NCBI RefSeq assembly: GCF_000513295.1
Contig: NC_023065.1
Span: forward strand, 682,001 to 746,000
Direction of reading: 5' to 3'
DNA from: Magnetospirillum gryphiswaldense MSR-1 v2
GTDB lineage: Bacteria > Pseudomonadota > Alphaproteobacteria > Rhodospirillales > Magnetospirillaceae
DNA length: 64,000 nt
Shown here: positions 8,310-35,326 of the stretch, piece by piece
How positions within the stretch are numbered: position 1 is the first letter of the stretch
Layout of the letters: every line of letters begins with the position of its first letter
Translations under genes and position numbers: made by a program
The notes under the pieces: generated by a model
Told to the model about the DNA's origin: nothing
What the model saw: the letters and a program-made list of their open reading frames with translations, nothing else
Database searches by the model: none

Positions 8310-8479
8310 TATAAACTGATAACTAGTTGTTCCCATCCAATTTAGGATAGCCGTGATACATGGCTGGTGGTAAGCATAAATACGGGTTTAGACAAAAGAT
8401 TTCATTGCACTGTTGTTGCGTCGCGATTGCTGCGGCGCGAAAAAAATGGTGCAAAGCTACAGCACAAGGGAGAGCGGCG

Positions 8480-11367: not shown

Positions 11368-12683
11368 GCTGCCGCCCTCCGCCCCTTGGCTGGTTTCAGT
11401 TCCCCGGCAAGCTGGGCCAGCCCATCGGTGCGCAGGCTGATGTTGATGCCCTGGGGCGATATATCGACCCGCTCGACCAGAAGCTGGACGATGCGGGCCT
11501 GCTCGGCGGGGAACAGTTCGTCCCAGAGGGGATCAAGCTGGCCCAGGTTAGTGGCAATCTCGCGTTCGGTCATGTCCTGGCCCTCGGCGCGGACGCTTTT
11601 CCAGGTGCGGGCCACCATCTCCGGGGTGCGCAGCAGGGAGCGCAACTGGTCGATCACCGCGTTCTCGACCTGGGCGGCGGGGACGCGCCCGATCGGGCAG
11701 GCTTCGGGGCCTTCCTTGATGATGCTGGTGGTGACGTAATAGCGGTACAGCCGCCCCTTCTTGCGGGTGTGGCTGGGAGTCATGGCGCGGCCGCCGGGGG
11801 CGAAGATCAGCCCCTTCAGCAGGGCCGGCGTCTGCACCCGCGTGCGGTTGGCGCGGACACGGGGGGAAACCTCGGTGATGGAGCGGACCTTGTCCCACAG
11901 GGCCTGATCGATGATCGGCTGGTGTTCGCCGTCATAGGCCACGCCCTTGTGGACAGCCTTGCCGATATAAAGCGGATTGGCCAGCAGCTTGTAGAGGCCG
12001 CCCTTGTCCAGCTTCTTGCCCCGGCGGGTGATGCCTTCTTCTGCCAATTCCTTGACCAGCAGGGTGGCGGAGCCGATGCGGATGAACCGCTCGAAAATCA
12101 TCCGCACGGTGGCGGCTTCCTCCTCGACCACCAGCAGCTTGCGGTCGGCGCAGCGGTAGCCGAACGGCACCGGCCCGCCCATCCAGATCCCCTTGCGGCG
12201 CGACGCCGCCACCTTGTCGCGGACACGTTCGCCAATCACTTCCCGCTCGAACTGGGCGAAGGACAGCAGGATGTTGAGCGTCAACCGCCCCATCGACGTG
12301 GTGGTGTTGAACGACTGCGTGATGCTGACGAAGGTGACGTCATTGCGGTCGAACACCTCCACCAGCTTGGAGAAATCCATCAGGGAGCGCGACAGACGGT
12401 CGATCTTGTAGACCACCACCACATCGACCAGACCGGTCTCGATATCGGCCAACAGGCGCCTCAGGCCGGGGCGTTCCAGGGTGCCGCCGGAGAAGCCGCC
12501 ATCGTCGTAATGGGTCGGGACAAGCACCCACCCCTCGGCCTTCTGGCTGGCGACATAGGCCTCGCAGGATTCCCGCTGGGCATCCAGCGAGTTGAATTCC
12601 ATCTCCAGCCCTTCCTCGGTGGATTTGCGGGTGTAGACGGCGCAGCGTAGCTTGCGGATCGGCTTGGTTCCGGCGGGCTTCAT
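11364..12683 (-). CDS. Large serine recombinase (resolvase plus recombinase domain)
   Basis: A 439-residue site-specific recombinase. The catalytic serine is S21 in AVYTRKSTEEG; the resolvase domain continues with GFSGGTLERPGLRRLLADIE and VYKIDRLSRSL (about residues 60-105) and SFAQFEREVIGERVRDK. A recombinase (DUF4368/zinc-ribbon-type) region follows, with GPVPFGYR, LYKLLANPLYIG and a positively charged C-terminus. Start overlaps the DUF2924 stop by 4 bases. Known families of this type integrate or excise mobile DNA; which attachment site it uses cannot be seen here. Confidence 0.9.
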   Translation of the reverse strand: MKPAGTKPIRKLRCAVYTRKSTEEGLEMEFNSLDAQRESCEAYVASQKAEGWVLVPTHYDDGGFSGGTLERPGLRRLLADIETGLVDVVVVYKIDRLSRSLMDFSKLVEVFDRNDVTFVSITQSFNTTTSMGRLTLNILLSFAQFEREVIGERVRDKVAASRRKGIWMGGPVPFGYRCADRKLLVVEEEAATVRMIFERFIRIGSATLLVKELAEEGITRRGKKLDKGGLYKLLANPLYIGKAVHKGVAYDGEHQPIIDQALWDKVRSITEVSPRVRANRTRVQTPALLKGLIFAPGGRAMTPSHTRKKGRLYRYYVTTSIIKEGPEACPIGRVPAAQVENAVIDQLRSLLRTPEMVARTWKSVRAEGQDMTEREIATNLGQLDPLWDELFPAEQARIVQLLVERVDISPQGINISLRTDGLAQLAGELKPAKGRRAAA

Positions 12684-13777: not shown

Positions 13778-13797
13778 TTGATCGTTCGCACGATCAA
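13778..13797. promoter_or_regulatory. Palindromic operator candidate
   Basis: TTGATCGTTCGCACGATCAA: 8-bp perfect arms (TTGATCGT / ACGATCAA) around TCGC. It sits 35 bases from the HTH gene start and ahead of the recombinase. The TTG at its left edge is in frame with the recombinase, but being inside the palindrome it is an unlikely start. Confidence 0.5.
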
Positions 13798-13816
13798 TAG
13801 AAGTCCGGGGGCGTCG

Positions 13817-15388
13817 GTGGCGGTAAGAAAAAATGGAGACAACAGCAAATCTGGAGACCGGAAGGGGCCGATACGGGCTGCCCAATATCTGCGCATGTCC
13901 ACCGAGCACCAGCAATATTCCACCGAGAACCAGGCCGATGCCATCGCCCATTATGCCCAACGTCATGGACTGGAAATCGTCCGCACCTATGCCGACGAAG
14001 GAATAAGCGGGCTGCAATTAGATAGACGCGAGGCGCTGCAAAGATTGATCGCCGACGCAACCCAGGGCCGCGCTGATTTCGAGATGCTGCTGGTCTACGA
14101 CGTCAGCCGCTTTGGCCGCTTCCAGGACACCGACGAGAGCGCCTATTACGAATACCTGTGCAAGAAGGCCGGCATTCGGGTGGAGTACTGTGCCGAGCAG
14201 TTCGTCAACGACGGCAGCATGCCTTCCTCCATACTGAAAATGATCCGCCGGAGCCAAGCGGGGGATTACAGCCGCGACCTGTCGATCAAGGTATTCGCCG
14301 GTCAGTGCCGGCTGATCCGGATGGGCTATCGTCAAGGCGGCCCTGCGGGCTATGGCCTGCGCCGCATGAGAATCGATCAGACTGGAGCCGAGCTTGGCCT
14401 TCTGGAACGGGGGCAACACAAATGCCTGCAGACCGACCGGGTAATCCTGAAGCCTGGTCCCGAGGACGAAATCGAAACAGTGCGGCGCATCTATCACCTG
14501 TTCGTAAGGGAAGGCCGCCGCGAAGGCGAGATCGCTGCCCAGCTGAACGCGCAGGGGATCATGACCGACCTCGGACGTCCCTGGCGGGCCTCGACGGTGC
14601 ATCAGGTGCTGACCAACGAGAAGTATATCGGCAATAATGTCTTCAACCGTCGCTCCTTCAAGCTGAAGGCCCAGCGGGTCAGGAATCCGCCGGAAGAGTG
14701 GATCCGGGCCGAAGGCGTCTTCACCCCCATCGTCGAACTCCAGGACTACCGGGCGGCGCAGGCGATCATCGTCGAGCGGTCGCGGCGGTTTTCCGATGAG
14801 GAAATTCTGGACCATCTGAAGGCAGTACATGCGCGGCATGGATTGCTGTCGGCCATTGTCATCGACGAGACACATCACGGACCATCCAGCGGCGCCATCC
14901 GTCATCGGTTCGGCAGCCTGCTCCGGGCCTATGCCCTGATCGGATACGATTCCGGCCGTGATTACGCCTATATCGAGGACAATCGCCACCTTCGCCGGAT
15001 GTTCCCCACCGTGGTGGAAGATACCCTGCGCCGCATCCGCGACCTGGGCGGCAAGACTCGCCGTGAGTTGGAGAGCGGCCTGGTGGTGGTGAACGAGGAA
15101 TTCTCACTCTCGCTGGTCATCGCCCGCTGCGAGACCACCAAGGCCGGCGCCCATCGTTGGACCATCCGGCTGGAGACCGGCCTGCTGCCCGACATCTCGG
15201 TGGCGGTTCGGATGGCGCCGGGCAATCGCGATATCCTGGACTATTACCTGCTGCCCGCCATCGACATGAACGTGGCGAAACTCCGTCTGGCCGAGGACAA
15301 CGGCATCGGCCTCGACGCTTACCGCTTCACTTCCCTGGAACGCTTGTTCGACCTGACCCGGCGTATCGCGCTGCGCGAGGTGGTCTGA
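13817..15388 (+). CDS. Serine recombinase of the recombinase-ParB-ParB cassette
   Basis: About 523 residues from a GTG at 13817 (GGGGG upstream); the frame is open to a TTG at 13778 that overlaps a palindrome. Resolvase domain: AAQYLRMSTEHQQYSTENQ with the catalytic Ser in LRMS, ADEGISG, YDVSRFGRF. The recombinase domain includes YRQGGPAGYG and a VHQVLTNEKYIGNNVFNR block. Unlike the recombinase at 11364, it has a long C-terminal extension (about 200 residues) of unknown role. Its stop overlaps the next gene (ATGA), a coupled three-gene operon with two ParB-like genes. Confidence 0.85.
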   Translation: MAVRKNGDNSKSGDRKGPIRAAQYLRMSTEHQQYSTENQADAIAHYAQRHGLEIVRTYADEGISGLQLDRREALQRLIADATQGRADFEMLLVYDVSRFGRFQDTDESAYYEYLCKKAGIRVEYCAEQFVNDGSMPSSILKMIRRSQAGDYSRDLSIKVFAGQCRLIRMGYRQGGPAGYGLRRMRIDQTGAELGLLERGQHKCLQTDRVILKPGPEDEIETVRRIYHLFVREGRREGEIAAQLNAQGIMTDLGRPWRASTVHQVLTNEKYIGNNVFNRRSFKLKAQRVRNPPEEWIRAEGVFTPIVELQDYRAAQAIIVERSRRFSDEEILDHLKAVHARHGLLSAIVIDETHHGPSSGAIRHRFGSLLRAYALIGYDSGRDYAYIEDNRHLRRMFPTVVEDTLRRIRDLGGKTRRELESGLVVVNEEFSLSLVIARCETTKAGAHRWTIRLETGLLPDISVAVRMAPGNRDILDYYLLPAIDMNVAKLRLAEDNGIGLDAYRFTSLERLFDLTRRIALREVV

Positions 15389-18484: not shown

Positions 18485-20809
18485 CTAATTCACATGCACC
18501 CGCGCATCCTCGGCGACGGCGGAGATCTCCACCTGCTCGCCACGGGGACGGATGCCCAGGACCCGACCGGATTGCGCCCAGGCTTGGCCGGGGCCGAAGC
18601 TGAAATACGTCCGCTCCTCGGAGCCGCCGGTGTAAGGGACGACGGTCAGGGGATCGAGGACACGGACTTTGGTGGGATCACCGGGCACTGCCTGGACCCG
18701 GTACGGTCCGGCCAGCCCACCGTCCCGGCGGCGTAGCGCCAGGTAATGGGCGGCTCCCTCGGTCCATTCCACCGGCTCGGACAGGGCCAGCACGTCGCCC
18801 TGGTGACCGACCACCTCGCCGCCTTGCCCCCATCGAGGCATGTCGTGGGTGATGGCGACCAGATCGCCGTAGGTGGGAATCATGCCCTCCAGCTCGGTGC
18901 GGAAGGTGACCAGACGGCGGCGGTAGCGGTTGTTGGCGGCGATGTATAGACCTTCCCGTTGGGCGTGGTCCTTGGCGGTGCAGCCGAACAAATTGACCTT
19001 GGCCGGGTTGTCGCCGGCACTGTCCGCCAGCTTGGCCGTGGTCTCGTCGGGCTTCCAAGAGCGCGACGAGAAATACTCCACCGTCACGGCGTCTGCGGTG
19101 TCGTCGCCCGGCATGACATATTTGATCTTGAACGAGCCCTTGACGATGTTGCGCGGCCCGAACAGCGCCACCGGGATGGTCTGGGGCTGGTCGCGGATGA
19201 TCCGCACGATGCCGCCCTGCTGGATGGGCACGGCGCGGCCGCAGCGGGCGATGCGGGTCAACGCCTCCCACACGGTCATGCTGGTGTCGAACACCGCGTC
19301 GAAGCTGTCGCCGCGAGCGATCCAGACGGCATCCAGGGTGGCAAGAGCCTTCAAATCGATGCGGGCATCGGCCAGCTTGCCGCCGTACTGGGCCTTGCAG
19401 GCATCGGCAAAAGCCCAGGCGATGGAGCGGGTCGGCTGAGGTTCCGACCAACCGCCCGTTTCCGACCACACCGGCAGCTTGCGAGTGGCGATGACGTTGA
19501 TCATGCGGCTGGAGCGCTGGGTCAGATTGTCGGTGGCCCGCATCTTCACCGCCAGCAGGGTGACGGGGCCGAAATCGGGTTGGCCGACGAGAGTGGCCCT
19601 CAGCGCCGCCCAGCGGATCTCATGCCCGGCCCGCTCGGCGGTGTCCTTGGTATCCAGGCGCTTGAGGCGCACCTCGTAACGGCCCGGACTGACCGGATAG
19701 CGGAAGGACAGGCGGATGGGGGAGTTGGTGGCGGCGGTTCGGCTTTCATTGCCCAGCACCGCCCACTCGGCCAGCGGATCGCCGTTGTCGTCGATGGGGC
19801 GAGTATCGACGCGCCACTGAACCGTGCGGGCATCGAGGCTGCCGGAATCGTTAGCGTAATAGAGGCCGCGCGGCATGACCACGTCGATGCCCAGCGCCCC
19901 CGCAGAAGTGTCCACCGGGTTAGCGGTGAACGGGCCGACGAAACCGTCGTCGCCGGAGGCCACCAGATTGGGGGCTATCAGTTCCTGACCCGCCACCTCG
20001 GCGGCGGTGATCACGTCGGGGTCGAACAGCGTCACCTCGCCGCCCGGCGGCACGATCTCGGTCTGCACCTCCTCGAAGGAGGAGATCGGGGTGTCCTCGA
20101 TCCGGATCTGCCCGATCTCGTATTCGCCCTGGCCGACGACGTGAAGCTGGTAGAGGAACTGCTCGCCACCGACGTAATCCTGGTACGGCTCGCATGCCAG
20201 GTCGGGATAGATCAGGTGGCGGCCATAGATGACCGGGATCGGCTGGCCGAGACGGGCCTGATTGCCCTGAGCCTGCAAGCTATAGGTGGGGCTGGCCGCC
20301 GGAATGGCGCCGCTGCCGCCCCAGCTCATGGAGGGGATGGACGGCTTGGGTGCCGGAACCACTGTGTTGATCAGCGCTGTGCCGGCCAGGGTGATGGCTC
20401 CCGCGCCGATGGCGGTGGCGGCTTCCATGGTCAGGCCGATGCCGGCCTCGGCGAAGGCGGAGCCGACATAGGGAGCCAGGGCCGCGCCGCCATAGAAGGC
20501 CGCTACCATCACCGCGATGGTCAACACCACCCGCATGGGGTTCTTGCCCCCGCCACCACCGCCGCCGCCACCCATGGGCCAGCGGATCACGGTGACGATG
20601 TCGCCTGCGCCGATCACCCGCAGGGCATAGACGTCCGCCGACACCATGTCGGTGCCGATGCGGATTTCCGGCCCGGTGACCCAGTTTTCCTCGGCGATGC
20701 CGCATTCCAACAGCAAGGCCCCTACCGTCATCCCTGCCTCGACGGCATGGACCGAGCGACTGGTCACCGGCTCGAACGGATTGGTGACGATAATGACGGA
20801 AGCGGTCAT
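18485..20809 (-). CDS. Phage tail tip protein J (host specificity)
   Basis: 774 residues. Starts MTASVIIVTNPFEP at 20809, overlapping the NlpC/P60 stop by 4 bases. An N-terminal domain precedes a Gly9 run (about residues 80-90) and a hydrophobic stretch (about 95-160), as in TipJ-type proteins of siphophages. The central part has QPIPVIYGRHLIYPDL, typical of lambda gpJ-like attachment proteins, followed by the tip-attachment domain (VWEALTRIARCGRA). Forms the tail tip and contacts the host receptor. Shorter than lambda gpJ (1132), lacking the distal fibre-like part. Confidence 0.85.
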   Translation of the reverse strand: MTASVIIVTNPFEPVTSRSVHAVEAGMTVGALLLECGIAEENWVTGPEIRIGTDMVSADVYALRVIGAGDIVTVIRWPMGGGGGGGGGKNPMRVVLTIAVMVAAFYGGAALAPYVGSAFAEAGIGLTMEAATAIGAGAITLAGTALINTVVPAPKPSIPSMSWGGSGAIPAASPTYSLQAQGNQARLGQPIPVIYGRHLIYPDLACEPYQDYVGGEQFLYQLHVVGQGEYEIGQIRIEDTPISSFEEVQTEIVPPGGEVTLFDPDVITAAEVAGQELIAPNLVASGDDGFVGPFTANPVDTSAGALGIDVVMPRGLYYANDSGSLDARTVQWRVDTRPIDDNGDPLAEWAVLGNESRTAATNSPIRLSFRYPVSPGRYEVRLKRLDTKDTAERAGHEIRWAALRATLVGQPDFGPVTLLAVKMRATDNLTQRSSRMINVIATRKLPVWSETGGWSEPQPTRSIAWAFADACKAQYGGKLADARIDLKALATLDAVWIARGDSFDAVFDTSMTVWEALTRIARCGRAVPIQQGGIVRIIRDQPQTIPVALFGPRNIVKGSFKIKYVMPGDDTADAVTVEYFSSRSWKPDETTAKLADSAGDNPAKVNLFGCTAKDHAQREGLYIAANNRYRRRLVTFRTELEGMIPTYGDLVAITHDMPRWGQGGEVVGHQGDVLALSEPVEWTEGAAHYLALRRRDGGLAGPYRVQAVPGDPTKVRVLDPLTVVPYTGGSEERTYFSFGPGQAWAQSGRVLGIRPRGEQVEISAVAEDARVHVN

Positions 20810-21271: not shown

Positions 21272-21796
21272 TTACCGCGCCAATCCGGGAAAGCGCCGAG
21301 CGGTGTAGGTGATGGAGGGAAACGCCTTGTTGCCGATGTCGAGCATGCGGGCGCGACCGGTGACGCGCATTGTGTCCGCCTCGACCTCGGTCAGGGTCAG
21401 TGTGATCGGCGGATCCATGTGCGGCCCCTCCAGATCGGTGGAAAGATAGGGCCGCCAGGTGACCTCGATCACATCCTGGCTGATGGCGGCGGCCTCCAGG
21501 GCGTCGGCCAGGTCGCGACCGACATTGTCGAGGGACAAGGTGATCTCGGGTACCGGCGCGGTATCCACTGGTGGCGGCGCGAAGTTGAAGGCCATGCTGG
21601 CGAAGGTGACCTTCTGGCCCGCATCACGGGGAGCGCCAGTCTCCAGTCTTGCGGCCAGATCCACATGGTCGCGGACCACCCGAATCGGCTGATCAAAGCT
21701 GGGGTGCCAGATTTCCAGCGTGTCGAGGACGACGGTCCCCGACGGCGCCGAGGCGAAGGCCTCCTTCAGCGCTTGGCTGAGAGACGGATCAGGCAT
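21272..21796 (-). CDS. DUF1833 phage tail protein
   Basis: 174 residues starting MPDPSLSQALKEAFASAPSG. The strings VVLDTLEIWHPSF and FAPPPVDTAPVPEITLSLDNVGRDL are the usual DUF1833 blocks. Located between a small membrane protein and NlpC/P60, the standard place for this family (minor tail protein equivalent to lambda gpL region). Start overlaps the upstream gene by 8 bases. Confidence 0.8.
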   Translation of the reverse strand: MPDPSLSQALKEAFASAPSGTVVLDTLEIWHPSFDQPIRVVRDHVDLAARLETGAPRDAGQKVTFASMAFNFAPPPVDTAPVPEITLSLDNVGRDLADALEAAAISQDVIEVTWRPYLSTDLEGPHMDPPITLTLTEVEADTMRVTGRARMLDIGNKAFPSITYTARRFPGLAR

Positions 21797-22136
21797 GGTC
21801 GTCCTTGCCGGGGACGCACATGGGCGACGGGAACGGACAGAAGGTCCGGGCCGCCAGCAGCTTGCGCATCTCATGGACGATCTCGGACAGGCCTTCGACC
21901 GCCGAGCGCAGGGCCTCGGTCTGGCGGGCCTGTTCCTCGACCACATGGGCGAAGGCTTCGACCGGGATGCCGGTGTCGGCCCTGGACGTCTTGCGCGACC
22001 ACGCCCAGGCGACGATGCCGACGATGATCACCGTGGCGGCGATGGCGGCGACCTGGACCACGGGAGCCGCTTGCCCCCAGGCGCCGACATACTGGGTAGC
22101 GACGCCAGCCCAGATGTCGGGGGATGAATCGGTCAT
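21789..22136 (-). CDS. Small single-span membrane protein in tail module
   Basis: 115 residues. A hydrophobic helix (VVQVAAIAATVIIVGIVAWAW, about 26-46) is followed by a basic RKTSR stop-transfer and a coiled-coil segment (VEEQARQTEALRSAVEGLSEIVHEMRK, in parts). Looks like a phage spanin/holin-like or tail accessory protein; function not determined. 12 bases after the radical SAM gene. Confidence 0.5.
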   Translation of the reverse strand: MTDSSPDIWAGVATQYVGAWGQAAPVVQVAAIAATVIIVGIVAWAWSRKTSRADTGIPVEAFAHVVEEQARQTEALRSAVEGLSEIVHEMRKLLAARTFCPFPSPMCVPGKDDHA

Positions 22137-22148
22137 GGCGATGCTCCG

Positions 22149-23483
22149 TCAGAAATCCAAGGCGGTGATGCCGGGGAAACGGATGCGCTCGCCCTCGATG
22201 CGGACCAGGCGGGCGTTGGTCAGCAGGTAAAGTGCGAGTGCCAGATAGGCGATTTCGAAGGTGAAGGAATTGTCGCAGGTCACACGGTGGCAGCCGCTGT
22301 CTTCCCCGAACATCATGCAGCCGCCGCCGCATAAGTGTAGCACCGGGCAATGCCGGCATTCCTCGCGGTGGCTCCAGTGGGTCGAATGCTGGAGGCGGAT
22401 GTTGTCGAAGGCATGGACGCTGCCGAGAAGCTGGGTGGGCGCCGCCCCGTTGGGGCAGAGGATGACATCGCCGTTGAGGCGCAGCGCGATGTTGTCCACC
22501 CGGTCCATGCCGCATCGCTGGCCGAGGGCATCCGAAGTCTTCGCTGTCCGCAGGACGTCGAAGAAACCCCTCAGCTTGTAGCTGACATGGGCGACCGGGA
22601 TCATGTCGGGCCGGGCGATGCCGTCGAAAATGGTCCGTCGCACCCGGCGATGATCCTCCTCTGTCAGCGGCGACATCAGCATGTCATGGGCCTGGTGGGC
22701 CATGACCATGCCCTCGGTGACGAATTGCGGGGCAGTGGCGCCGGGCGGCAGGTTGAGTTTTGCCAGGAAGAAATCGCGGATGGCCACCGGGTCGTGGTTG
22801 GCCAGCGTCAGCACGCTGTTGAACGCGATCTTGCCGACGGGGGCCAGCCGTTCGACCGCGTAGCGGATGCCCTCCAGGACCTTCGGGTCGTCGAGGGGAT
22901 CAGGCCCGCGCACCGATTGGCCGGGGCCGTCATGGCTGATGGAGAGGGAGAAGCCCAGCTTCATCAGCCACTCCACCTTGTCGCGGTCGAGCAGGCTGCC
23001 GTTGGTGGGCATCCAGAAATGGGCGTTCGGCCACATTGCCCGGATGGCTTCGGCCATGCGCTTGATCTTCTTCCAATAGACCAGTGGCTCGCCGCCCCAG
23101 AACTCGAAGCGGATATCGCCCTCGGGCGGGGTGTGGCACCACTCGGGCAGCCGGCGCACGAACGTATCGACGTCGGCGGTGTCGGCGGTGTCGGCGATGG
23201 AATCGTCGCTTTGCCGGCTGACGGCCTGCGAGCAATAGCCGCAGGAGAAATTACAGGCCAGTCCGAACAGGATGCGGACCATGCGCAGTTGCCGATCCTT
23301 GCCGAGCTGGTTGTGATCGGGATGGACCCGCTGCACGGCGCAATGCGCCTGCGGCTCTCGGGCCATGCCGATGGGCGCCAGGTCGACCGCGCGGCCGTCC
23401 TCGTAGGTCAGCGCGGTGGTGTGGGGGTTCCAATTGACGACCAGCGGGCTACCGTCGGCTTGTTCCAGGTGCAGCTTGAACAT
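22149..23483 (-). CDS. Radical SAM/SPASM peptide maturase in the phage tail operon
   Basis: 444 residues. Canonical [4Fe-4S] radical SAM motif C77-x3-C81-x2-C84 (CNFSCGYC), GGEP SAM-binding motif at 130-133, and a full SPASM domain: C324-x13-G338-x4-C343, then C376-x2-C379-x5-C385-x3-C389 and C398/C403. This matches anaerobic sulfatase-maturase/sactionine-synthase type enzymes that modify peptides or proteins at Cys, Ser or other residues. It sits inside the tail operon: start shares one base with the stop of the 263-residue gene, and the tail-fibre-like gene with a terminal NCNCNC tail is one gene further upstream. The substrate is inferred to be that tail or the 263-residue protein. Not a usual phage gene. 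Confidence 0.9.
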   Translation of the reverse strand: MFKLHLEQADGSPLVVNWNPHTTALTYEDGRAVDLAPIGMAREPQAHCAVQRVHPDHNQLGKDRQLRMVRILFGLACNFSCGYCSQAVSRQSDDSIADTADTADVDTFVRRLPEWCHTPPEGDIRFEFWGGEPLVYWKKIKRMAEAIRAMWPNAHFWMPTNGSLLDRDKVEWLMKLGFSLSISHDGPGQSVRGPDPLDDPKVLEGIRYAVERLAPVGKIAFNSVLTLANHDPVAIRDFFLAKLNLPPGATAPQFVTEGMVMAHQAHDMLMSPLTEEDHRRVRRTIFDGIARPDMIPVAHVSYKLRGFFDVLRTAKTSDALGQRCGMDRVDNIALRLNGDVILCPNGAAPTQLLGSVHAFDNIRLQHSTHWSHREECRHCPVLHLCGGGCMMFGEDSGCHRVTCDNSFTFEIAYLALALYLLTNARLVRIEGERIRFPGITALDF

Positions 23484-24274
23484 TAGATCACCTCGACATT
23501 GACGTCGGCGAGACCGGAGAAATGCCGGAAACCGAGCTTGATCTTGAACCTGTCGCCGGGCTCCAGGCCCAGGGCGCCGACCTTGAACGAGGCCATCCCA
23601 TCGGTCAGCCGAACACGCCGCATGGGCAGATAGCCCCCGGTCTCGGCCAGATAGAGATCGCAGACGGCCGAGGAAATCAGCATTCCCTGCCGATCCACGA
23701 CCTGGATGGGGATCGTGGTATAGCCGTCGGCGACAACCTGCACGGCACCGGCTACCTTGACCCGCGGCAGTACCGCCGAGCGGGTCGCCTCGACCTCCTG
23801 CTCGACCGGGCTCTGGTCGATGACCAGCGGCCAATCGGGATGCGTCATGATGTGCAAGGCGCAATCTGCGAAGGTCGATGACAGAAACGGCACGTAGACG
23901 TGCAACGGCGCCGTCTCCATGTTTCGCGGACTTTCCTCCCGGTCCCGCCGGGTTATGGCTGTCTCGGCGAAACGGTTGAACCAGATCCCCAGCGGTTTCT
24001 GGATATCGAGCGGATCGAGGGTGGAGCACCAAAACCCATAATCCGAGAACTCACGGCGGCCCTGGATCTCGGCGAAATCGAAAATGACCGGGGGCGAGAC
24101 GATCAGGTCTCGCCCTGCCAGGACATCGGCGACCGAGGCTCCGTCGATTTTGCATTCCTCGGAATGCGTGCCCTCAACCCATTGCCGATAGACCGACGCG
24201 GTGAAACCGCCTTCGGAAAGGCTGACGATGAATCCGACCCGATAGCCAAGCCGTTTGGAGTAGGCGATGAGCAT
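23483..24274 (-). CDS. Unrecognised tail-module protein, Ig-like C-terminus
   Basis: 263 residues, starts MLIAYSKRLGYRVGFIVSLS. N-terminal half unrecognised; the C-terminal about 90 residues (VKVAGAVQVVADGYTTIPIQ, LETGGYLPMRRVRL-like strands, FKVGALGLEPGDRFKIKL) have the strand pattern of an Ig-like/FN3 fold. It contains four cysteines (ECK, FWCST, FADCA, AVCD). Lies between the tail-fibre gene (10 bases) and the radical SAM gene (1-base overlap), so all three are co-translated. May be a partner or second substrate of the radical SAM enzyme, or a minor tail protein. Confidence 0.6.
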   Translation of the reverse strand: MLIAYSKRLGYRVGFIVSLSEGGFTASVYRQWVEGTHSEECKIDGASVADVLAGRDLIVSPPVIFDFAEIQGRREFSDYGFWCSTLDPLDIQKPLGIWFNRFAETAITRRDREESPRNMETAPLHVYVPFLSSTFADCALHIMTHPDWPLVIDQSPVEQEVEATRSAVLPRVKVAGAVQVVADGYTTIPIQVVDRQGMLISSAVCDLYLAETGGYLPMRRVRLTDGMASFKVGALGLEPGDRFKIKLGFRHFSGLADVNVEVI

Positions 24275-24284
24275 GATTGCGCCT

Positions 24285-25157
24285 CTATCCCATGCAATTG
24301 CAGTTGCAGTTCTTGGTCGTGTAGAGAACCACCTGCGTCCCACTCGACCCCAGGGAGACAGAGGTGTAATTGCCGGCGCCATCGCCGCTGGCAGCAGTTC
24401 CCGCCGATTGCAGGGCCGTATAACTGGCGGCTTTGAACAGCGTCGCCAAGTCGGCGCCGCTGGCGATCTGGAAGCCGGTGGTGGTGGCGGTACCGCTGGA
24501 CTTGAAGACGGTGCCGGCAAGCGGGCCGGTCATGGAATCGCCGGTCTTGGCGACCCGGGTGGACAGATCGATGGCCGGCAGCACGGATGCGGGAAGCTTG
24601 CCGTCGGCCTGAACGTCAGGGATGGCGCCGGGGCCAGTGCCGACATTGCGGGCCGCCACGGTGCCGAGCACGCCCGTCTCGATGTCGGCGGCCTGGACCT
24701 TGCCGCCGCCTTTCAGCAGCTTGCCGGTAGACCCGTCGAAGCGAGCCAATTCACCATCCATTGCACCGGCGGGACCGCTGACGTCGCCGCCGCCGACATA
24801 GAGCTCGTAGGCGTCGCCCGCCCCGTTGACCCGGATGCCCTTGAGGGCATGGGAGGGCGCCACCTCGGGGATCTTGGCCGCGCGTTCGCTTGCCGTGGCG
24901 GCGCTGCCGGCGGCGGCCTGGGCGGAAGCCGAAGCGGCCTGGGCGCTGTCGGCGGCATCGGCGACCTTTTGGTCCAACTCCGCCCGGCTGGCGGCGATGG
25001 CAGCCTCGTTGTCGGCGATGGTCCTGGCCACGGTCTTGACCGGGCCGGTCTCGGTCTCGACGGTGGAGGCGGCGTCGCCGTGGACGACGGCGTGCAGCTT
25101 GGCGCTGGCCGCCGCCGCCTTGTCGACGGCCGCCTGAAGGTCGGTCTGCATGGTCAT
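24285..25157 (-). CDS. Tail-fibre-like protein with C-terminal NCNCNCMG tail
   Basis: 290 residues. N-terminal coiled coil (residues about 1-95, Ala-rich heptads), then Gly-rich fibre-type repeats (GGDVSGPAGAMDGELARFDG, KTGDSMTGPLAGTVF) as in phage side-tail fibres. The protein has exactly three cysteines, all in the last seven residues: N283-C-N-C-N-C-M-G290. Such a terminal motif is unlike tail fibres in general. Encoded 10 bases before the 263-residue gene and one gene before the radical SAM/SPASM enzyme, making the tail a candidate modification site. Host-attachment role is inferred. Confidence 0.75.
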   Translation of the reverse strand: MTMQTDLQAAVDKAAAASAKLHAVVHGDAASTVETETGPVKTVARTIADNEAAIAASRAELDQKVADAADSAQAASASAQAAAGSAATASERAAKIPEVAPSHALKGIRVNGAGDAYELYVGGGDVSGPAGAMDGELARFDGSTGKLLKGGGKVQAADIETGVLGTVAARNVGTGPGAIPDVQADGKLPASVLPAIDLSTRVAKTGDSMTGPLAGTVFKSSGTATTTGFQIASGADLATLFKAASYTALQSAGTAASGDGAGNYTSVSLGSSGTQVVLYTTKNCNCNCMG

Positions 25158-25167
25158 GAAGAGGCTC

Positions 25168-25647
25168 CTACCAGGAGAGGGGGCCGGGAAGACTGGTGTG
25201 GACCAGCCCGTGCAACCGGTCGATGGTGGCGAACAGCGCCGTCATGTCGGAATCAAGGGCGATGGCCAGCGCATCCTCGGTCAGGGTGGGACGCTCGCGG
25301 ATTTCCAGTTCCGAGGTGATTTCCCACAGGACACGGTTCGCCAGCCGGGCTTCGAACTGACGGGTAAAGCGTGCCTCGTGGGTGGTGAGCCCGATGCCGC
25401 CCAGCAGGTCGATCGCGAACCAGGCGCCACCTTCCTGGGCGTGCCAGCGATACCAGGCCTCGAACAGGGCGAACTGTTCCGGCTTCATCCGCCAGCGCAC
25501 GGACAGGCGTGACGGTACTTGGGTGAAGCGCCGCCGTTGCCGCGCCGGTCCTGCCTCCATCTCGGTACGCAGGATGGCTTCGCCCGGGCGGATGCCGTAG
25601 CCCTGGATGGACGGCAGGGGCAAGGTGGCGGGCCATGTGGTCGTCAT
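25168..25647 (-). CDS. Conserved phage tail protein
   Basis: 159 residues from the ATG at 25647 (GGAG 9 bases upstream; a GTG at 25653 is also in frame). Pattern WPATLPLPSIQGYGIRPG ... RRRFTQVPSRLSVRW ... YRWHAQEGGAWFAIDLL ... RVLWEITSELEIRERP is typical of the small minor tail proteins between the tape measure and DUF1833 in this phage type. No enzymatic motif. Confidence 0.65.
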   Translation of the reverse strand: MTTTWPATLPLPSIQGYGIRPGEAILRTEMEAGPARQRRRFTQVPSRLSVRWRMKPEQFALFEAWYRWHAQEGGAWFAIDLLGGIGLTTHEARFTRQFEARLANRVLWEITSELEIRERPTLTEDALAIALDSDMTALFATIDRLHGLVHTSLPGPLSW

Positions 25648-25671
25648 TTCCACCGCTCCTCGCCTCTTGGT

Positions 25672-28671
25672 TCATCGATAGCTTCCGGCGGCCGGGTTGA
25701 GGCCATAGCGGTGTTCCAGCACCGGGGCCATGCCCTCGCCGCGGGAGAGGCGGCGGCTGATCCGTCCCTCGATTTCCTCGACGAAGATGTCGATCTGGAT
25801 GCGGCCATCTCCGCCTTGGCTCCATTGCGCCTTGGCTTCGGCATTGGCGGCATTGTTGTGGACGGTGATCTGCACGTTGGCGGCCTCGGGACGGGACAGG
25901 GCCGCGCCCAGAAGACGGTCGGCATTGTTCATCTGCCGGGGCGTGAAGATGCCTTCGCCGTCCTGCGCGATGATGGGCCGCTCGCCCCGCAGGATGCCGC
26001 CAGCATGATAACGCGGCGCCCCAGACCACAAGGTGGGATCGACCCGACGGCTGAAGGTGGGTCGTCCACCGACCATGCCGCCGGAATGAAAGCCGCCGAC
26101 CGGAGCCTCGGACATCAGCGGCCCGACATTGGAGGCATTGTCATAGACCTGCACCCCTCCGGAGCCGCCGGAGAAATAGCTGCCGATGCCGGTGAGCAAG
26201 CTGCCGAACAGCCCGCCTTCGGCACCGCCGAAGAACGGCGTCACCACCGCCATGCGCCAGGCCGCCCGCAGAGCCTCTTCGGCCAGACTGTTGAATAGAT
26301 CCTTCCCGGCCAGCTTGCCGGTGGTGGCCCATTTGACGAAAGCATCCTCGCTGGCCCGCAGCGCCCCGGACATGGCCCGCTCGGCAGAAGCCGCCGCATT
26401 GGTGGCTTCGTCGGCATAGGCGCGCACCGCCCGGATGGCACCGTCCTGCCAGTCGCGGCTGGCGGCCAGTTTGTCCTGCTCCAGTTCCTTGTAGCGGCGG
26501 GCGTAGGCTTCCTCCGACAAGGCGCCGCTGGCCCGCTGTTCGTTCAGCTTGGCCAGTTCTTCGGCAAACCGCTGAGTGGCGTCATAGGCCAGGGTAGTCT
26601 GCCGGGCCTCGTCCTTGACCGCTTCGGCATATTGGCGGGACCGCGCTGCGCGGTACTCATCCACCTTGGGATCGTCCTCGGCCAGCTTGTGGCCGCGGGC
26701 GAATTTGGCCACGTCATTGTCGATGGTGACGTCGCGAACGCGATTGCGATCACTGCTGCGCACCGCCTCGGCCAGACGCACCTGGGTATCGATCTCGCGC
26801 TCCAGATCGGCGATGGCGCGGGCCGCTTCGCTGCTGGCGCGGGATTTCTGCACCCGGGCATAGGACTGAGCCAGTTCGCCATTGGCGTCGGTCAGCCCCT
26901 TGGCCGCCTGCTCGGCCAGCCAGTTGGTCCGTTCTGCCAGAATGATGTCGGACACCGAGCCCTTGGCGGCCTCGGCCAGCCGGTCGTTGGCGGCGGATTC
27001 CTGCTCCAGCGAGCGGATCAGGCCGTTCTTCTGCTCCTGCAGCTTGGCATCATCGATGCGGCGCAGCGCCTGGTCATAGGCGGCGACGGCGACACCGCCG
27101 TTCTTGAAGGCGAATTCCAGCACCTTGGCGGCACGGGCGGCGTCGATCTGGGCACGGCCACCTTCGCGGGCAGCTTGGGCGAGGCGCTCCTGGCCAAGGG
27201 CCTGGATGTCGAGGCCCAGAACCTCGGCCTGTGCCTGGGCGGACATCTCGCCCACTCCCTTGGCGGTGGCCTCGCGGGCCAGAAGCCCGCGGATTTCCTG
27301 TTCCTTGGCCGGGGTGCGATAGACGCCACCTTGCTGGAACAGTTCCTTCTCAAGCTGGCGAAAACCCTTGGCCGCGTCGTACTGGGCCTTGGTGCGGCTG
27401 AACTCGGCATTGCCGGCGGCGCGGGCCGCGTTGAGCTTCTCCTGCCATTCCACCTCGAACTTCAGGTCGGCCAGCTTCTCCACATAGGTAGGTTCGCGCT
27501 GTTCGGCGCGGATCTGGTCGCGCTGCATCTTGGCCTGGGCTTCCATGCCCGCCCGCTTGCGGGTGATCTCATCGAGATCGTCGGAAATGACCTGGCGCTC
27601 GGCCAGCAGACGGCGCAGTTCTTCGTTCTCTTCCCTGACCGCCATCACCACCACGGAATGGGTGCCGGCGGGCAGCGGCTTGTCCAGCGCCTGCGCGCCG
27701 CCCAGTTCGGCGATGCGCTTGTCCAGGGCGGCAAGTCGGGACTGAAGCGACGACGTGCCGGGCGTCAGACTTTCCAGCGCCGCCGCACCGGCATTGGCGC
27801 CACCCGACAGGATGCCGCGCAGCCAGGGCGCGTTGGTGAAGCCCTGCCAAGCGTTGGCCATGCGGGTGAAGGATCGCTCGGCGGTGTCGGCGCTTTCCAG
27901 AGCGGCGGCGTCAAAGCCTTTCAACGCCGTGATCAGGGTGTCGCGGAAGAAGTCTGCCGTCACCTTGCCCTGGGTCACCATCTGCCGGAACCCGCCCGAG
28001 GGCAAACCGGCGGCCCGGTCCAGGGCCTGCAACAGCCCCGGCATGGGCTCGACGATCTGGTTCAGTTCCTCGGCGCGTAGCGTTCCCGAGGATAACCCCT
28101 GGGCCAGTCCGAACAGCGACTGCTCCAGTTGCTCGGAAGAGGCGCCCAGTGCGATGGCGGTGGACTGGAAGCCCTCCAGCAGCGCCCGGCTTTCGCCGGT
28201 GGTGATGATCCCAGCCTTCTGCAGCGCCGCCAGCTGGGAATAGGCGCCGATCACCGTTTCCAGGGCTGTGCCGGTCTTCTGCGCCTGGGCATAGAGATAC
28301 GAGGTGGTTTCGGTCAGGGCAGCAGCCCCCACCAGCCCCTTCAGTCGGGCCTCCAGGCTTTCCACCTTGATGGTGGACTCGACCATGGCCTTGCCGAACA
28401 GGCCGATGGCCGCGCCCGCCGCCAGCCCCGCCGGTCCCAGCGCCATCATCACCGAGCCGATGGGACCGAGGCGCGAGGCGAAAGCCGCCATGCCGCCCTG
28501 GATGTCCTGGCTGGCGGCGTTGATGGCCAGCAGCGACCGGGAAGCCGGTTGCGCCGCCCCTTCGATCCGCGCCAACGCCTTCTGGCCATCTTCGCCCAGT
28601 TTCAGCAGGGCACGGCGGACGGTTTCGCCGTCCTGCAAGGACAGGCGGATGGAGACGGATTTGGTGGCCAT
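25672..28671 (-). CDS. Tail length tape measure protein
   Basis: 999 residues. N-terminal tape-measure domain (about residues 85-270) with transmembrane-like segment ALGPAGLAAGAAIGLFG, then LYAQAQKTGTALETVIGAYSQLAAL, EGFQSTAIALGASSEQLEQSLFGLAQGLSSGTLRAEELNQIVEPMPGLLQAL read in pieces. A long coiled-coil central part (about 330-830) is Ala/Glu/Arg/Lys-rich; the C-terminal domain includes HSGGMVGGRPTFSRRV and GEGIFTPRQMNNADRLLGAAL, conserved in lambda-like tape measures. Sets tail length and is ejected with DNA. Confidence 0.92.
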   Translation of the reverse strand: MATKSVSIRLSLQDGETVRRALLKLGEDGQKALARIEGAAQPASRSLLAINAASQDIQGGMAAFASRLGPIGSVMMALGPAGLAAGAAIGLFGKAMVESTIKVESLEARLKGLVGAAALTETTSYLYAQAQKTGTALETVIGAYSQLAALQKAGIITTGESRALLEGFQSTAIALGASSEQLEQSLFGLAQGLSSGTLRAEELNQIVEPMPGLLQALDRAAGLPSGGFRQMVTQGKVTADFFRDTLITALKGFDAAALESADTAERSFTRMANAWQGFTNAPWLRGILSGGANAGAAALESLTPGTSSLQSRLAALDKRIAELGGAQALDKPLPAGTHSVVVMAVREENEELRRLLAERQVISDDLDEITRKRAGMEAQAKMQRDQIRAEQREPTYVEKLADLKFEVEWQEKLNAARAAGNAEFSRTKAQYDAAKGFRQLEKELFQQGGVYRTPAKEQEIRGLLAREATAKGVGEMSAQAQAEVLGLDIQALGQERLAQAAREGGRAQIDAARAAKVLEFAFKNGGVAVAAYDQALRRIDDAKLQEQKNGLIRSLEQESAANDRLAEAAKGSVSDIILAERTNWLAEQAAKGLTDANGELAQSYARVQKSRASSEAARAIADLEREIDTQVRLAEAVRSSDRNRVRDVTIDNDVAKFARGHKLAEDDPKVDEYRAARSRQYAEAVKDEARQTTLAYDATQRFAEELAKLNEQRASGALSEEAYARRYKELEQDKLAASRDWQDGAIRAVRAYADEATNAAASAERAMSGALRASEDAFVKWATTGKLAGKDLFNSLAEEALRAAWRMAVVTPFFGGAEGGLFGSLLTGIGSYFSGGSGGVQVYDNASNVGPLMSEAPVGGFHSGGMVGGRPTFSRRVDPTLWSGAPRYHAGGILRGERPIIAQDGEGIFTPRQMNNADRLLGAALSRPEAANVQITVHNNAANAEAKAQWSQGGDGRIQIDIFVEEIEGRISRRLSRGEGMAPVLEHRYGLNPAAGSYR

Positions 28672-29404: not shown

Positions 29405-30364
29405 TCAATACCCCGCCACGTCGTTGACCAGGGTGACGCGCAGCAGATACCCGGCCACCGGATCGCGGGCGGCCCGCCAGTCGTAGCTGACCTGGATACC
29501 GCCGGGGCCTTTGATCTCCTGCTTCTTCTTGGGCAGGAAGACGCGGGGCAGATGGAAGGTCAAGGCAAAGTCCGAACCCGGGATGGTGAAGCCGTATTCC
29601 ATCTCCACCGGGCTTTCCGTTGCGATGGCGGCGGTCAGGGTGGTGTCGGTGCCGAAGCGGATGTCCACCGAGCCTTCGGCGGTGGCCTCGGTCTCATCGA
29701 CGCCGTCGATCAGGCCGTCGGCGCGGATGGTCTCGACCCGCTCCAGATTGTTGGAAAACGACAGCTTGCCGCCGACCACGTTGGCCAGTTGACCGCCGCC
29801 GACCCGGATGGTGCCGCTGCCCTGGCTGAACCGCTTCAGGGCAAAGCTGGCCGGGCTGGCGTCGATGGTGGTGGCGGCTTCGGTCTCGCCCCGGGCGATC
29901 ACACCGATGCTGGCATTGGCAGCGCCGGAGCGGGCCATGTCGAAGGACAGCTTATCCAGCTTGGCGCCGCCGTGGCGGAAGAACTTCGGTACCGCCAGTT
30001 GGGCGTGGCCGATCTCGATGGCGAGGCTGGGCAGCGTGCCGCCCGAGGTGAACACATGGGTGAAGCCAGTGTCGGCATCGCCGCTGGTGGTGGGAGCGCC
30101 GAACAACCCCTTCAGCCAGAAACCCAGCGCGCGAGTATCGAGGGGAACGCCGACATCGCCTTCGTCCTTGACCGCTTCGTAATAGGGATCCTGGGCATCG
30201 CGGCCCTGGCCCAGCAGCGGGTCGTAGCCCAGAGGGCGCTCGGCCCCCAGGCTGGATTCCTTGAACGACAGCCGGGTGTAGCCATCGGCCGGAAGCACGC
30301 CATAGCTCGCCTCGAAGGCGGCCAGCAGCACGCAATCGGCGCCGTAAGCGCGCGTCTTGCCCAT
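29405..30364 (-). CDS. Phage tail tube protein
   Basis: 319 residues. RLSFKESSLGAERPLGYDPLLGQGRDAQDPY is the typical N-terminal segment of large tail-tube proteins in this phage type; the C-terminal domain (GPGGIQVSYDWRAARDPVAG, LLRVTLVNDVAGY) is also conserved. Encoded between the tail-terminator-like gene and the G/GT chaperones. Polymerises around the tape measure to form the tail tube. Confidence 0.85.
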   Translation of the reverse strand: MGKTRAYGADCVLLAAFEASYGVLPADGYTRLSFKESSLGAERPLGYDPLLGQGRDAQDPYYEAVKDEGDVGVPLDTRALGFWLKGLFGAPTTSGDADTGFTHVFTSGGTLPSLAIEIGHAQLAVPKFFRHGGAKLDKLSFDMARSGAANASIGVIARGETEAATTIDASPASFALKRFSQGSGTIRVGGGQLANVVGGKLSFSNNLERVETIRADGLIDGVDETEATAEGSVDIRFGTDTTLTAAIATESPVEMEYGFTIPGSDFALTFHLPRVFLPKKKQEIKGPGGIQVSYDWRAARDPVAGYLLRVTLVNDVAGY

Positions 30365-30382: not shown

Positions 30383-30811
30383 TCAGCCCAGCGGGTCGGG
30401 ACTGCTGTAGTGGATGGTGACCGGCACCATGGCGCCGCGCAGGGCGGCAGCTCCGTCGATGGCGAGGCCGGAAGTCTTGGGAGCGCCCCAGTACAGTCCT
30501 TCGGCCAAGCCGCCGAGGGAACGGTCGGTGGACAAGGCGTTCCCCACCGCCATCAACAGAGCGTCCAATACGGCACTGTCGTTGTCCTGACCGCGCTGGA
30601 GGATGATTTCGATTTCGGTCTGGTGTTCCCACAGGTAGGTGACCGGCGACAGCACCACCTCGGGGTCGCCGGGATCGCCGTCGCGCAGGATGATCAGGCC
30701 ACCCGCGGGCACCGTTTCCGGCAATGGGGCTTCCCGCTTGGCTGTGGCACCAGGGACTGTCTCCAACCGAGCCAGCAGGGCCGACAGAATTTGCTCCCGG
30801 ATGCTGGGCAT
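30383..30811 (-). CDS. Tail terminator-like protein
   Basis: 142 residues from MPSIREQILSALLARL at 30811. Pattern LWEHQTEIEIILQ and LSTDRSLGGLAEGLYWGAPKT matches the minor tail U-like (tail terminator) family of this phage type. Upstream of the tail-tube gene by 18 bases. Its start abuts the antitoxin promoter at 30811-30840, which drives the opposite strand. Confidence 0.65.
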   Translation of the reverse strand: MPSIREQILSALLARLETVPGATAKREAPLPETVPAGGLIILRDGDPGDPEVVLSPVTYLWEHQTEIEIILQRGQDNDSAVLDALLMAVGNALSTDRSLGGLAEGLYWGAPKTSGLAIDGAAALRGAMVPVTIHYSSPDPLG

Positions 30812-30840
30812 TGAAATGTTCCCCAAATGAGGCACATAAT
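30811..30840 (+). promoter_or_regulatory. Promoter of the RelB/YafQ module
   Basis: TTGAAA (30811-30816), 18-base spacer, CATAAT (30835-30840), 22 bases before the antitoxin ATG, with AAGGAG at 30850-30855. Lies at the start of the oppositely oriented tail-terminator gene, so the module carries its own promoter. Confidence 0.55.
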
Positions 30841-30861
30841 GGGACAGCCAAGGAGACCCCC

Positions 30862-31119
30862 ATGTCGAAGACCGAATCGATCCGCGCCCGCGTCGAACCC
30901 GACCTCAAAGCCCAGGCCGAGGCCGTTTTCGGTGCGCTTGGCCTGACCCCGACCGAGGCGATCACCCTGTTCTATCGTCAGGTGACCCTGCACCACGGAC
31001 TGCCGTTCCCCGTCCGCATTCCCAACGAAGCCACGCAGGCGGCTCTCCGCGATGCCATGGAAGGTGAGAACCTGACCGAATGGTCGAGCCTTGATGCGCT
31101 GAAGGCCGCCCATCGTTGA
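30862..31119 (+). CDS. Type II antitoxin, RelB/DinJ family
   Basis: 85 residues. N-terminal ribbon-helix-helix (ESIRARVEPDLKAQAEAVFGALGLTPTEAITLFYRQV, read as RHH core) typical of RelB/DinJ; C-terminal toxin-binding tail with GENLTEWSSLDALKAAHR. Start at 30862 with AAGGAG 7 bases upstream. Its stop overlaps the toxin start. Represses its own operon and neutralises YafQ in the known systems. Confidence 0.88.
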   Translation: MSKTESIRARVEPDLKAQAEAVFGALGLTPTEAITLFYRQVTLHHGLPFPVRIPNEATQAALRDAMEGENLTEWSSLDALKAAHR

Positions 31120-31388
31120 GCCGGACGCTCCGCACCACGAAGCAATTCGATCGCGATCTCAAGACGGCGACCAAACGAGGCAAGACTCTCGACAAGCTCT
31201 GGCAGGTGGTGGAGTGCCTGGTGAACAGCGAGCCGCTGGCCATCCGGCACCGTCCCCACCGTCTGTCGGGCAATTGGAGTCCCTGCTGGGAATGCCATAT
31301 CGAGCCGGACTGGCTATTGATCTGGTACGAAACCGAGGATGAGTTGGTGCTGGCGGCCACCGGCACCCATTCCGATCTGTTCGGCTGA
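31116..31388 (+). CDS. Type II toxin, YafQ family mRNA interferase
   Basis: 90 residues from a TTG start overlapping the antitoxin stop (TTGA). The catalytic set of E. coli YafQ (H50, H63, D67, W68, H87, F91) is present two residues earlier: H48, H61, D65, W66 (ECHIEPDWLLIWY), H85 and F89 (THSDLF). Ribosome-dependent mRNA endonuclease in the known family. The rare TTG start is consistent with keeping toxin below antitoxin. Confidence 0.9.
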   Translation: MSRTLRTTKQFDRDLKTATKRGKTLDKLWQVVECLVNSEPLAIRHRPHRLSGNWSPCWECHIEPDWLLIWYETEDELVLAATGTHSDLFG

Positions 31389-35056: not shown

Positions 35057-35326
35057 ATGACAGTGATGCCGGAACCGCGTTGGTCCCTTCAAGATGCCAA
35101 GAACAGCTTCAGCGCCGTGGTCGACGCGGCCCTGCATGGGCGTCCGCAAACCGTCACCAAGCGAGGCAAACCAGCCGTCGTCGTTTTGTCGGTTCAGGAA
35201 TACGAGCGACTGCATCAGCGACACGACGTCGGCACACCGTCGTTCGTCGAGCACCTTCTGGCCATGCCGCAAGGTGAAGTCGAATTTGAACGCCAGCCGG
35301 TCACGTTGCGTGAGGTCGAGTTCTGA
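35057..35326 (+). CDS. Type II antitoxin, Phd/YefM family
   Basis: 89 residues. WSLQDAKNSFSAVVDAALHG and PQTVTKRGKPAVVVLSVQEYERL are the Phd/YefM core, which binds DNA via the N-terminal fold. The C-terminal tail (MPQGEVEFERQPVTLREVEF) is acidic/toxin-binding. A second in-frame ATG at 35066 also has AGGA upstream. Stop overlaps the toxin start (ATGA). Confidence 0.88.
   Translation: MTVMPEPRWSLQDAKNSFSAVVDAALHGRPQTVTKRGKPAVVVLSVQEYERLHQRHDVGTPSFVEHLLAMPQGEVEFERQPVTLREVEF

Follow-up and report, generated by a model that had tools for sequence, protein, structure and literature searches.

The window analyzed here is a stretch of 64,000 nucleotides from Magnetospirillum gryphiswaldense MSR-1 v2 (NC_023065.1, positions 682,001 to 746,000). 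Its phage tail operon contains three adjoining minus-strand genes, of which P0003 codes for a tail-fibre-like protein with a terminal cysteine array, P0002 for an accessory protein and P0001 for a radical S-adenosylmethionine (SAM) enzyme with the SPASM cysteine pattern. Comparison with other loci suggests that many phages pair a SPASM-type radical enzyme with a fibre-like gene ending in alternating cysteines, pointing to chemical finishing of their own fibre tips. We consider it probable that P0001 performs a phage-encoded maturation of the fibre tip, similar to that of ribosomally synthesized and post-translationally modified peptides (RiPPs), in which the cysteine thiols of the array are coupled to nearby carbons, perhaps as thioethers. 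The cysteine array of P0003 is the putative substrate of P0001, because arrays and enzymes are associated in both directions of search. The genes and motifs of the cassette are:

24285..25157, minus strand: P0003, tail-fibre-like protein of 290 residues, open reading frame (ORF) read directly; proposed substrate
24294..24311, minus strand: codons of the cysteine array NCNCNC (AAC TGC AAC TGC AAT TGC), P0003 residues 283-288
23483..24274, minus strand: P0002, accessory protein of 263 residues, conserved cassette partner
23483..23483, minus strand: one-base overlap between P0002 stop and P0001 start (TAATG)
22149..23483, minus strand: P0001, radical SAM/SPASM enzyme of 444 residues, proposed maturase of the cysteine array

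Direct reading of the ORFs reproduced the arrangement described by an earlier, sequence-only reading of this DNA, namely three minus-strand genes at these coordinates with a gap of 10 bases between P0003 and P0002 and the one-base overlap between P0002 and P0001. An artefact of frame or annotation was rejected, since both ORFs and overlaps were read directly. The TAATG overlap suggests that translation of P0002 and P0001 is coupled.

Association of the enzyme with the cysteine array

Starting from the enzyme, scans with an alignment of ten enzymes were used to select the best 80 genome loci and the best 80 viral loci, which are labelled with L-numbers below. An alternating cysteine array (NCNCNCACDC...) was present in an ORF on the same strand at 122 of these 160 loci, mostly at the C-terminus. 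The array filter alone recovered 118 loci, with 99 C-terminal arrays, eight arrays preceding a SKIIC domain, six preceding a Hint domain and five others; it missed L035, L037, L111 and L172 (tail YCSYCSYCTCACSDCSC), which were added by hand. Applied to the opposite strand as a control, the same filter gave 13 of 160 loci, five of them with C-terminal arrays, and the co-occurrence of cysteine tail and enzyme among homologues, which the sequence-only reading had proposed to look for, is visible in these loci. Where at least 3.5 kb of upstream sequence was available, arrays were found at 108 of 126 loci of the enzyme. A further requirement of at least 3 kb downstream left 97 loci, of which 83 had an array (79 by the filter and four by hand) and 71 a P0002 relative. 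The order array, P0002, enzyme was observed in 78 of the 94 loci in which all three were scored. At five loci, the array was located only in an ORF of less than 100 residues, of which that in L093 (ACACAC, 69 residues) may be spurious. The counts are not independent, because some prophages are represented twice, once as a viral contig and once as a genome locus (for example L108 and L028, L111 and L035). In an earlier pass, in which the enzyme was sought with a sequence expression, seven of 165 loci gave no matching ORF; the final count was based on a profile. In a tree constructed with FastTree, array types clustered by enzyme clade, requiring 14 changes compared to a mean of 30.9 after shuffling, a clustering that is inflated by near-copies in a tree with flagged long branches. 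L016 and L029, which are apparently the same place according to their coordinates, represent a prophage without the fibre gene. In L016, a decayed prophage, the start of a gene resembling the tail gene at 29405-30364 of the window is fused to the C-terminal end of a P0002 relative (2781-3701, minus strand), and the genes between these two are missing.

Starting from the tail, viral-contig DNA encoding NCNC[ND]CNC was collected irrespective of the enzyme, which yielded at least 120 stretches, and an enzyme was called from a profile match on the same strand with an E-value below 1e-10. In 116 stretches the motif was part of an ORF of 25 residues or more, and in 97 it fell within the last 30 residues. 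The enzyme accompanied 75 of these 97 C-terminal tails on the same strand, and 58 of the 63 that had at least 3.5 kb of downstream sequence. The five tails lacking it among the 63 belong to ORFs of 25, 34, 36, 36 and 40 residues, which are probably not genes, and the 22 cases among the 97 consist of these five short ORFs and 17 tails with less than 3.5 kb downstream. Internal motifs were accompanied by the enzyme in five of 19 cases, and one of the four stretches without an ORF of at least 25 residues contained an enzyme. Among 297 genomes of the host's order, 19 contained AAYTGYAAYTGYRAYTGY, each at one place (26 overlapping matches). At the 18 places beyond the window, 13 arrays were located in ORFs of at least 293 residues, counted from stop to stop, and in 12 of these cases the same strand also encoded the enzyme within the stretch retrieved. 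The exception, L339, belongs to a prophage in decay, with a P0002 homologue truncated to 147 residues and subsequent genes that look host-like by eye. The remaining five places (L331, L332, L344, L345 and L346), four with short ORFs and one with a 314-residue ORF containing an internal motif, had no enzyme. Cysteine-tailed fibres without a radical SAM neighbour, which the sequence-only reading had named as the observation that would refute it, were looked for from the tail side, and the enzyme accompanied nearly all C-terminal tails with at least 3.5 kb downstream and nearly all fibre-sized array proteins of the order. The idea that the phage may modify its own fibre tip is supported by this co-occurrence in both directions.

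The three proteins and variants of the cassette

The only cysteines of P0003, at residues 284, 286 and 288, are indeed those of the terminal NCNCNCMG; the protein ends with ...TTKNCNCNCMG, and no Hint domain follows the array. Homologues with the same tail are present in L009, L015 and L027. The host genome (4.37 Mb) contains exactly one AAYTGYAAYTGYAAYTGY, which is the P0003 array, and the reversed control gave none; this single occurrence together with the recurrence beside relatives of the enzyme indicates that the tail is beyond chance. In 139 unique tails, a few of them spurious, the residue preceding an array cysteine was Asn in 420 of 630 cases, Ala in 61 and Asp in 59, and Asn accounts for 7.1% of the array-protein bodies. 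The tail-composition set includes loci that were selected by the motif, so that the value of 149 of 208 obtained from it is biased. Codon usage in the arrays is mixed (449 TGC and 192 TGT, 258 AAC and 162 AAT), which indicates selection on the protein and not on a DNA repeat, and a repeat at the DNA level was therefore rejected as the source of the array. Array composition also varies, with YCSYCSYCTCACSDCSC in L035 and NCNCGATAFNCRTNCNCNCACCGCC in L040. The bodies of the fibre-like proteins are diverse, yet not all unrelated: 132 distinct array proteins of at least 150 residues fell into 26 greedy groups at 50% coverage, a criterion that was used instead of single-linkage grouping, which merged 115 of the 132. 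When six other array proteins were scanned against tail-fibre PHROGs, L013, L011 and L035 gave matches with E-values of 4.8e-9, 6.3e-6 and 4e-11, respectively, and those of L064, L144 and L196 gave no match to a tail-fibre family.

The radical SAM motif, GGEP and the complete SPASM pattern that had been described for P0001 were found by direct reading. The cluster motif is C77-X3-C81-X2-C84, GGEP occupies residues 130-133, and the SPASM cysteines are C324, C343 (GX4C), C376-X2-C379-X5-C385-X3-C389 and C403. All three radical-SAM and seven SPASM cysteines are invariant among 60 sequences (P0001 and 59 relatives). P0001 scored 33.3 bits with the SPASM model TIGR04085 (cut-off 27) and 33.6 bits with the Pfam model Radical_SAM (cut-off 29.5). 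By profile it belongs to the phage family phrog_1802 (E 4.1e-54), an entry that bears no function beyond the radical SAM domain and is filed under 'other', and the closest named relative is from Magnetospirillum sp. SS-4 (86% identity). Within the 25 best of 44 NCBIfam matches, no maturase model reached its own cut-off; the eight nearest (geopeptide, YhhB, nif11, sulfatase, CcpM, HxsB, FxsB and PapB) scored 45-63 bits with cut-offs of 340-519. The AlphaFold model of P0001 is confident, with a mean predicted local distance difference test score (pLDDT) of 93.7. Its best fold match by E-value in the PDB is CteB (5wgg/5why) with a template modelling (TM) score of 0.55-0.59, followed by anSME and ChlB, and the best sequence-profile match in the PDB is 8vpo (TigE).

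P0002 is a conserved member of the cassette, with relatives at 109 of the 160 enzyme loci and 161 related ORFs obtained by an iterated profile search of the surveyed loci. It matched no Pfam model above the cut-off and nothing in PHROG or NCBIfam, there was no match to PDB sequences up to an E-value of 1, and tblastn with P0002 and one relative against phage records was likewise without a match. The predicted structure (pLDDT 94.9, alignment of 69 rows) consists of a mixed N-terminal part and a C-terminal immunoglobulin (Ig)-like domain. Fold matches in the PDB are partial and Ig-like, with TM scores to the query of up to 0.32 among the 50 matches listed. Seven predicted viral proteins, six named as phage proteins and one unnamed, match most of the length of P0002 with TM scores to the query of 0.60-0.80. 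P0002 is probably either a virion protein or an assembly or presentation partner of the fibre. A search for PqqD-type domains among the Pfam matches of P0001 and P0002 was negative, with dedicated profiles for RiPP recognition elements outside this search.

A version of the cassette is carried by the Achromobacter phages JWF and 2-1, which are isolated phages with complete genomes. In JWF, 2-1 and several prophages, a Hint-type sequence (CFPAGT...) directly follows the array. The JWF fibre has a PF05203 match of 47.5 bits (cut-off 32.1) that begins at residue 308, where the array ends, whereas the fibre of the window ends in the array itself; the same pattern of array and Hint sequence was found in 2-1, and the PF05203 match of L064 is weaker and below the cut-off. 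Hint domains are known to self-cleave at the first cysteine of CFPAGT. Since such self-cleavage is expected, the array could become the C-terminus also in this branch. At eight loci the array is followed by the SKIIC domain, and the enzymes of these loci form one branch (support 97). In L144 (7425-8306) and L196 (4633-5628), this C-terminal domain, with the pattern SKI[IV]CxKLxxxGxxxxxxxxADQ after internal cysteine arrays, had no match in Pfam or PHROG at an E-value of 0.1. Two enzymes are encoded at L011, L018 and L035. Two genomes from the family of the host have a second, shorter radical SAM-type ORF of 356-358 residues with CNLRCRYC, which separates the P0002 relative from the main enzyme (L021, 2835-3905, and L017, 2841-3917, both minus strand). 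The distant case L192, apparently a tail operon, combines three array proteins with two radical SAM genes and a P0002-like C-terminal match. A separate ORF of 136 residues in L192 (1958-2368, minus strand), which by eye is Hint-like without the first cysteine, lies between the array peptides and the P0002-like protein.

Proposed maturation of the fibre tip and its alternatives

According to the proposed mechanism, the fibre-like protein would be made with its C-terminal alternating cysteine array and accompanied by P0002, which probably assists in its assembly or presentation. P0001, produced together with P0002, would act prior to assembly, in the cytoplasm of the host, where it would couple the cysteine thiols of the array to carbons of neighbouring residues. 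The most likely acceptors would be Asn, Asp or Ala residues that separate the cysteines or directly precede them. Because the first two Asn residues of NCNCNC each adjoin one cysteine and precede another by three positions, either spacing is possible for a Cys-Asn link. At the distal tip of the fibre, this would yield thioether rings or links between chains, and a link within or between fibre chains, which would be trimeric if P0003 is like other fibres, could lock the tip. The phage may benefit from a locked or stiffened tip, or from a receptor-binding cap beyond the reach of the 20 amino acids. What the comparisons show directly is the gene order, the sequence features, the co-occurrence across the family, the residue preference within the arrays and the predicted folds; the identity of the substrate and the bond type, timing and benefit of the modification are what we infer from them.

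Several characterized systems provide precedents for individual parts of this scheme. CteB (SCIFF) and PapB (freyrasin) are likewise SPASM radical SAM enzymes with an adjoining cysteine-rich substrate, and PapB forms nested Cys-to-Asp thioethers (according to parts of PMC9413430). They differ from the present case, in which the substrate would be a large fibre-like protein with an alternating xCxC array instead of CX3D, and P0001 scored 45.5 with the PapB model (cut-off 340) and 27.2 with the SCIFF model (cut-off 425). The CX3D/E-type linking motif of PapA is not found in P0003, where the tail NCNCNCMG has no Asp or Glu nearby. QhpD, the maturase of the quinohemoprotein amine dehydrogenase gamma subunit, resembles the proposed function of P0001 in that it acts on a large protein and not on a short peptide to set thioethers (sections of PMC8172795), whereas its substrate is a subunit of a cellular enzyme and not part of a virion, and P0001 reached 40 bits with TIGR03906 (cut-off 453). 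Sactipeptide maturases such as RumMC share the SPASM cysteines, and the thioether acceptors in ruminococcin C include Asn and Ala (PMC8172795, in part), as proposed here for the array; their substrates are short peptides, and P0001 scored 27.3 bits with the RumMC model (cut-off 720). A ranthipeptide with a Cys-Asn S-C-beta link has been described as well (parts of PMC11002830). In contrast to a typical RiPP with a short precursor, a leader and a released core, P0003 is a structural-type protein of 290 residues in which the array is terminal, and the scanned genes around the cassette encode no proteases other than the head protease and NlpC/P60.

A number of observations weigh against the proposed maturation, which is deduced here from sequence comparison and predicted folds. 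No array was detected at 38 of the 160 enzyme loci, 20 with less than 3.5 kb of upstream sequence and 18 with more, and some of these 18, among them the four loci L089, L098, L105 and L179, look cellular by eye. Because several array-less loci do not look like phage DNA, the enzyme family presumably has other substrates as well. At these four loci, there are apparently no phage genes, and the neighbours were judged by eye to be HemW-like, ABC transporter and flavin halogenase-like genes. P0003 is weakly recognizable as a fibre, with a match to the tail-fibre family phrog_28473 at an E-value of 0.0028; of the earlier description as a tail-fibre-like gene within a tail operon, the location is clear and the likeness of P0003 itself to tail fibres is tentative. 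The recognition winged helix of CteB, which is mentioned in parts of PMC8172795, is not visible in the model of P0001, where three strands at residues 2-27 form the N-terminus. Finally, the closest sequence models, with which P0001 scores far below the cut-offs, include the cyclophane-forming YhhB and FxsB and a sulfatase maturase that scores above PapB and QhpD, so that the chemistry of P0001 cannot be read from its family.

The same proximity of YhhB, FxsB and the sulfatase maturase, together with the ranks of anSME and ChlB shortly after CteB among the fold matches, makes it conceivable, although rather unlikely, that the enzyme acts on the array with a different outcome, such as oxidation of cysteine to formylglycine, epimerization or carbon-carbon links, as performed by other SPASM enzymes. 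However, many cysteines alternating with small or amide residues seem better suited to S-to-C linking, CteB tops the fold search, and the second-enzyme relative in L018 is best matched by the PapB thioether model, albeit below the cut-off. Phage spikes with metal-bound tips exist, and CxCxC arrays can bind metal, which could mean that the array forms a tip with, for example, iron or zinc at the trimer end and that a different protein encoded in the operon is the target of the enzyme. We consider this improbable, as array and enzyme track each other in both directions across the 26 groups of fibre bodies, and no other cysteine-rich partner was noticed, a point on which no systematic search was made. 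Release of the modified tail as a peptide after cleavage from the fibre, as a phage-borne bacteriocin or signal, would fit with the expected self-cleavage in phages with a Hint domain after the array and with the 48 of 148 array ORFs shorter than 150 residues (counted from stop to stop), some of which are spurious; it appears very improbable given that the other 100 ORFs have at least 150 residues and that the scanned neighbours of the cassette include no exporter and no further protease. Radical SAM genes are common, with 29 PF04055 matches in the host genome, but chance pick-up of a cellular gene unrelated to the fibre tail is contradicted by the recurrence of the association over many contigs and hosts and by the control, in which 37 of 7690 opposite-strand ORFs had CxCxC in the last 45 residues, and a random insertion of a host gene was accordingly rejected on the basis of the two-way co-occurrence.

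Thioether formation at the fibre tip by P0001 may be part of a more widespread, virus-encoded maturation of virions, a generalization that we put forward tentatively and about which we are almost evenly divided. In this case, phages of Pseudomonadota, and distantly also L192 with its unplaced host, would use a SPASM enzyme and an Ig-domain partner to write multiple thioether rings or inter-chain links, and in one branch the tip would first be capped by a self-cleaving Hint domain. Once the Hint domain is removed, the finished tip would be exposed, or a reactive C-terminus would remain through which it could attach to something else.

Genomic setting and biological meaning

The cassette is located inside a phage morphogenesis operon. 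It is preceded by genes for terminase, a lambda-type portal, head protease, capsid protein E, tail terminator, minor tail protein and tape measure, and it is followed by genes for DUF1833, NlpC/P60 and a J-like tip protein. Neighbouring genes are:

25672..28671, minus strand: tape measure protein, tail operon context
25168..25653, minus strand: virion structural protein (phrog_384), upstream neighbour of P0003, after the tape measure gene
21789..22136, minus strand: protein of 115 residues with a single hydrophobic stretch, downstream neighbour of P0001
21272..21793, minus strand: DUF1833 minor tail protein, context
18485..20809, minus strand: J-like tip attachment or central tail fibre protein, context

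The 115-residue protein, which by eye is of a membrane type and is retained in L009, matched no family above the cut-off in the Pfam and PHROG scans. Two toxin-antitoxin pairs are encoded on the strand opposite to the structural operon, a RelB antitoxin (PF04221) with a YafQ toxin (PF15738) by the tail terminator gene (30724-31388, plus strand) and a Phd/YefM antitoxin with a PIN-domain toxin within the operon (35057-35730, plus strand). Elsewhere in the window, two distinct large serine recombinases with Resolvase and Recombinase domains are encoded within a span of approximately 4 kb (11364-12683, minus strand, and 13778-15388, plus strand) and adjoined by an IS-type (insertion sequence) transposase gene (9524-10900). 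A gene for a PPPPPPGGDM-repeat protein (8360-9097, plus strand), in which the stretch ISELDLDLVVGGS resembles a double-glycine leader by eye, adjoins an HlyD-type secretion gene (7023-8336) and may belong to a system for an exported peptide.

We know of no description of a tail-fibre maturation of this type. Our literature search, with preprints and most subscription journals outside its scope, returned nothing on radical SAM enzymes with phage fibres, and a search for Hint domains with phage tail fibres yielded nothing relevant. A Hint domain has been reported in a terminase in the consulted parts of PMC3556154 and PMC5259590, and a term search in an Achromobacter phage paper naming JWF (PMC10457797) found no mention of radical SAM. 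The enzyme class is known, whereas, as far as we could find, neither its action on a virion fibre tip nor the P0002 partner or the array has been described.

The tips of phage fibres determine which host cell is chosen. If P0001 and its relatives indeed finish these tips, cross-linking by this radical chemistry would bring to the contact between phage and host something that the 20 amino acids do not provide. The family phrog_1802, so far bearing the name of its domain alone, would thereby receive a role. A virion protein would moreover represent a natural, large and self-displaying substrate, which could be useful for understanding how peptide-modifying enzymes choose their targets.

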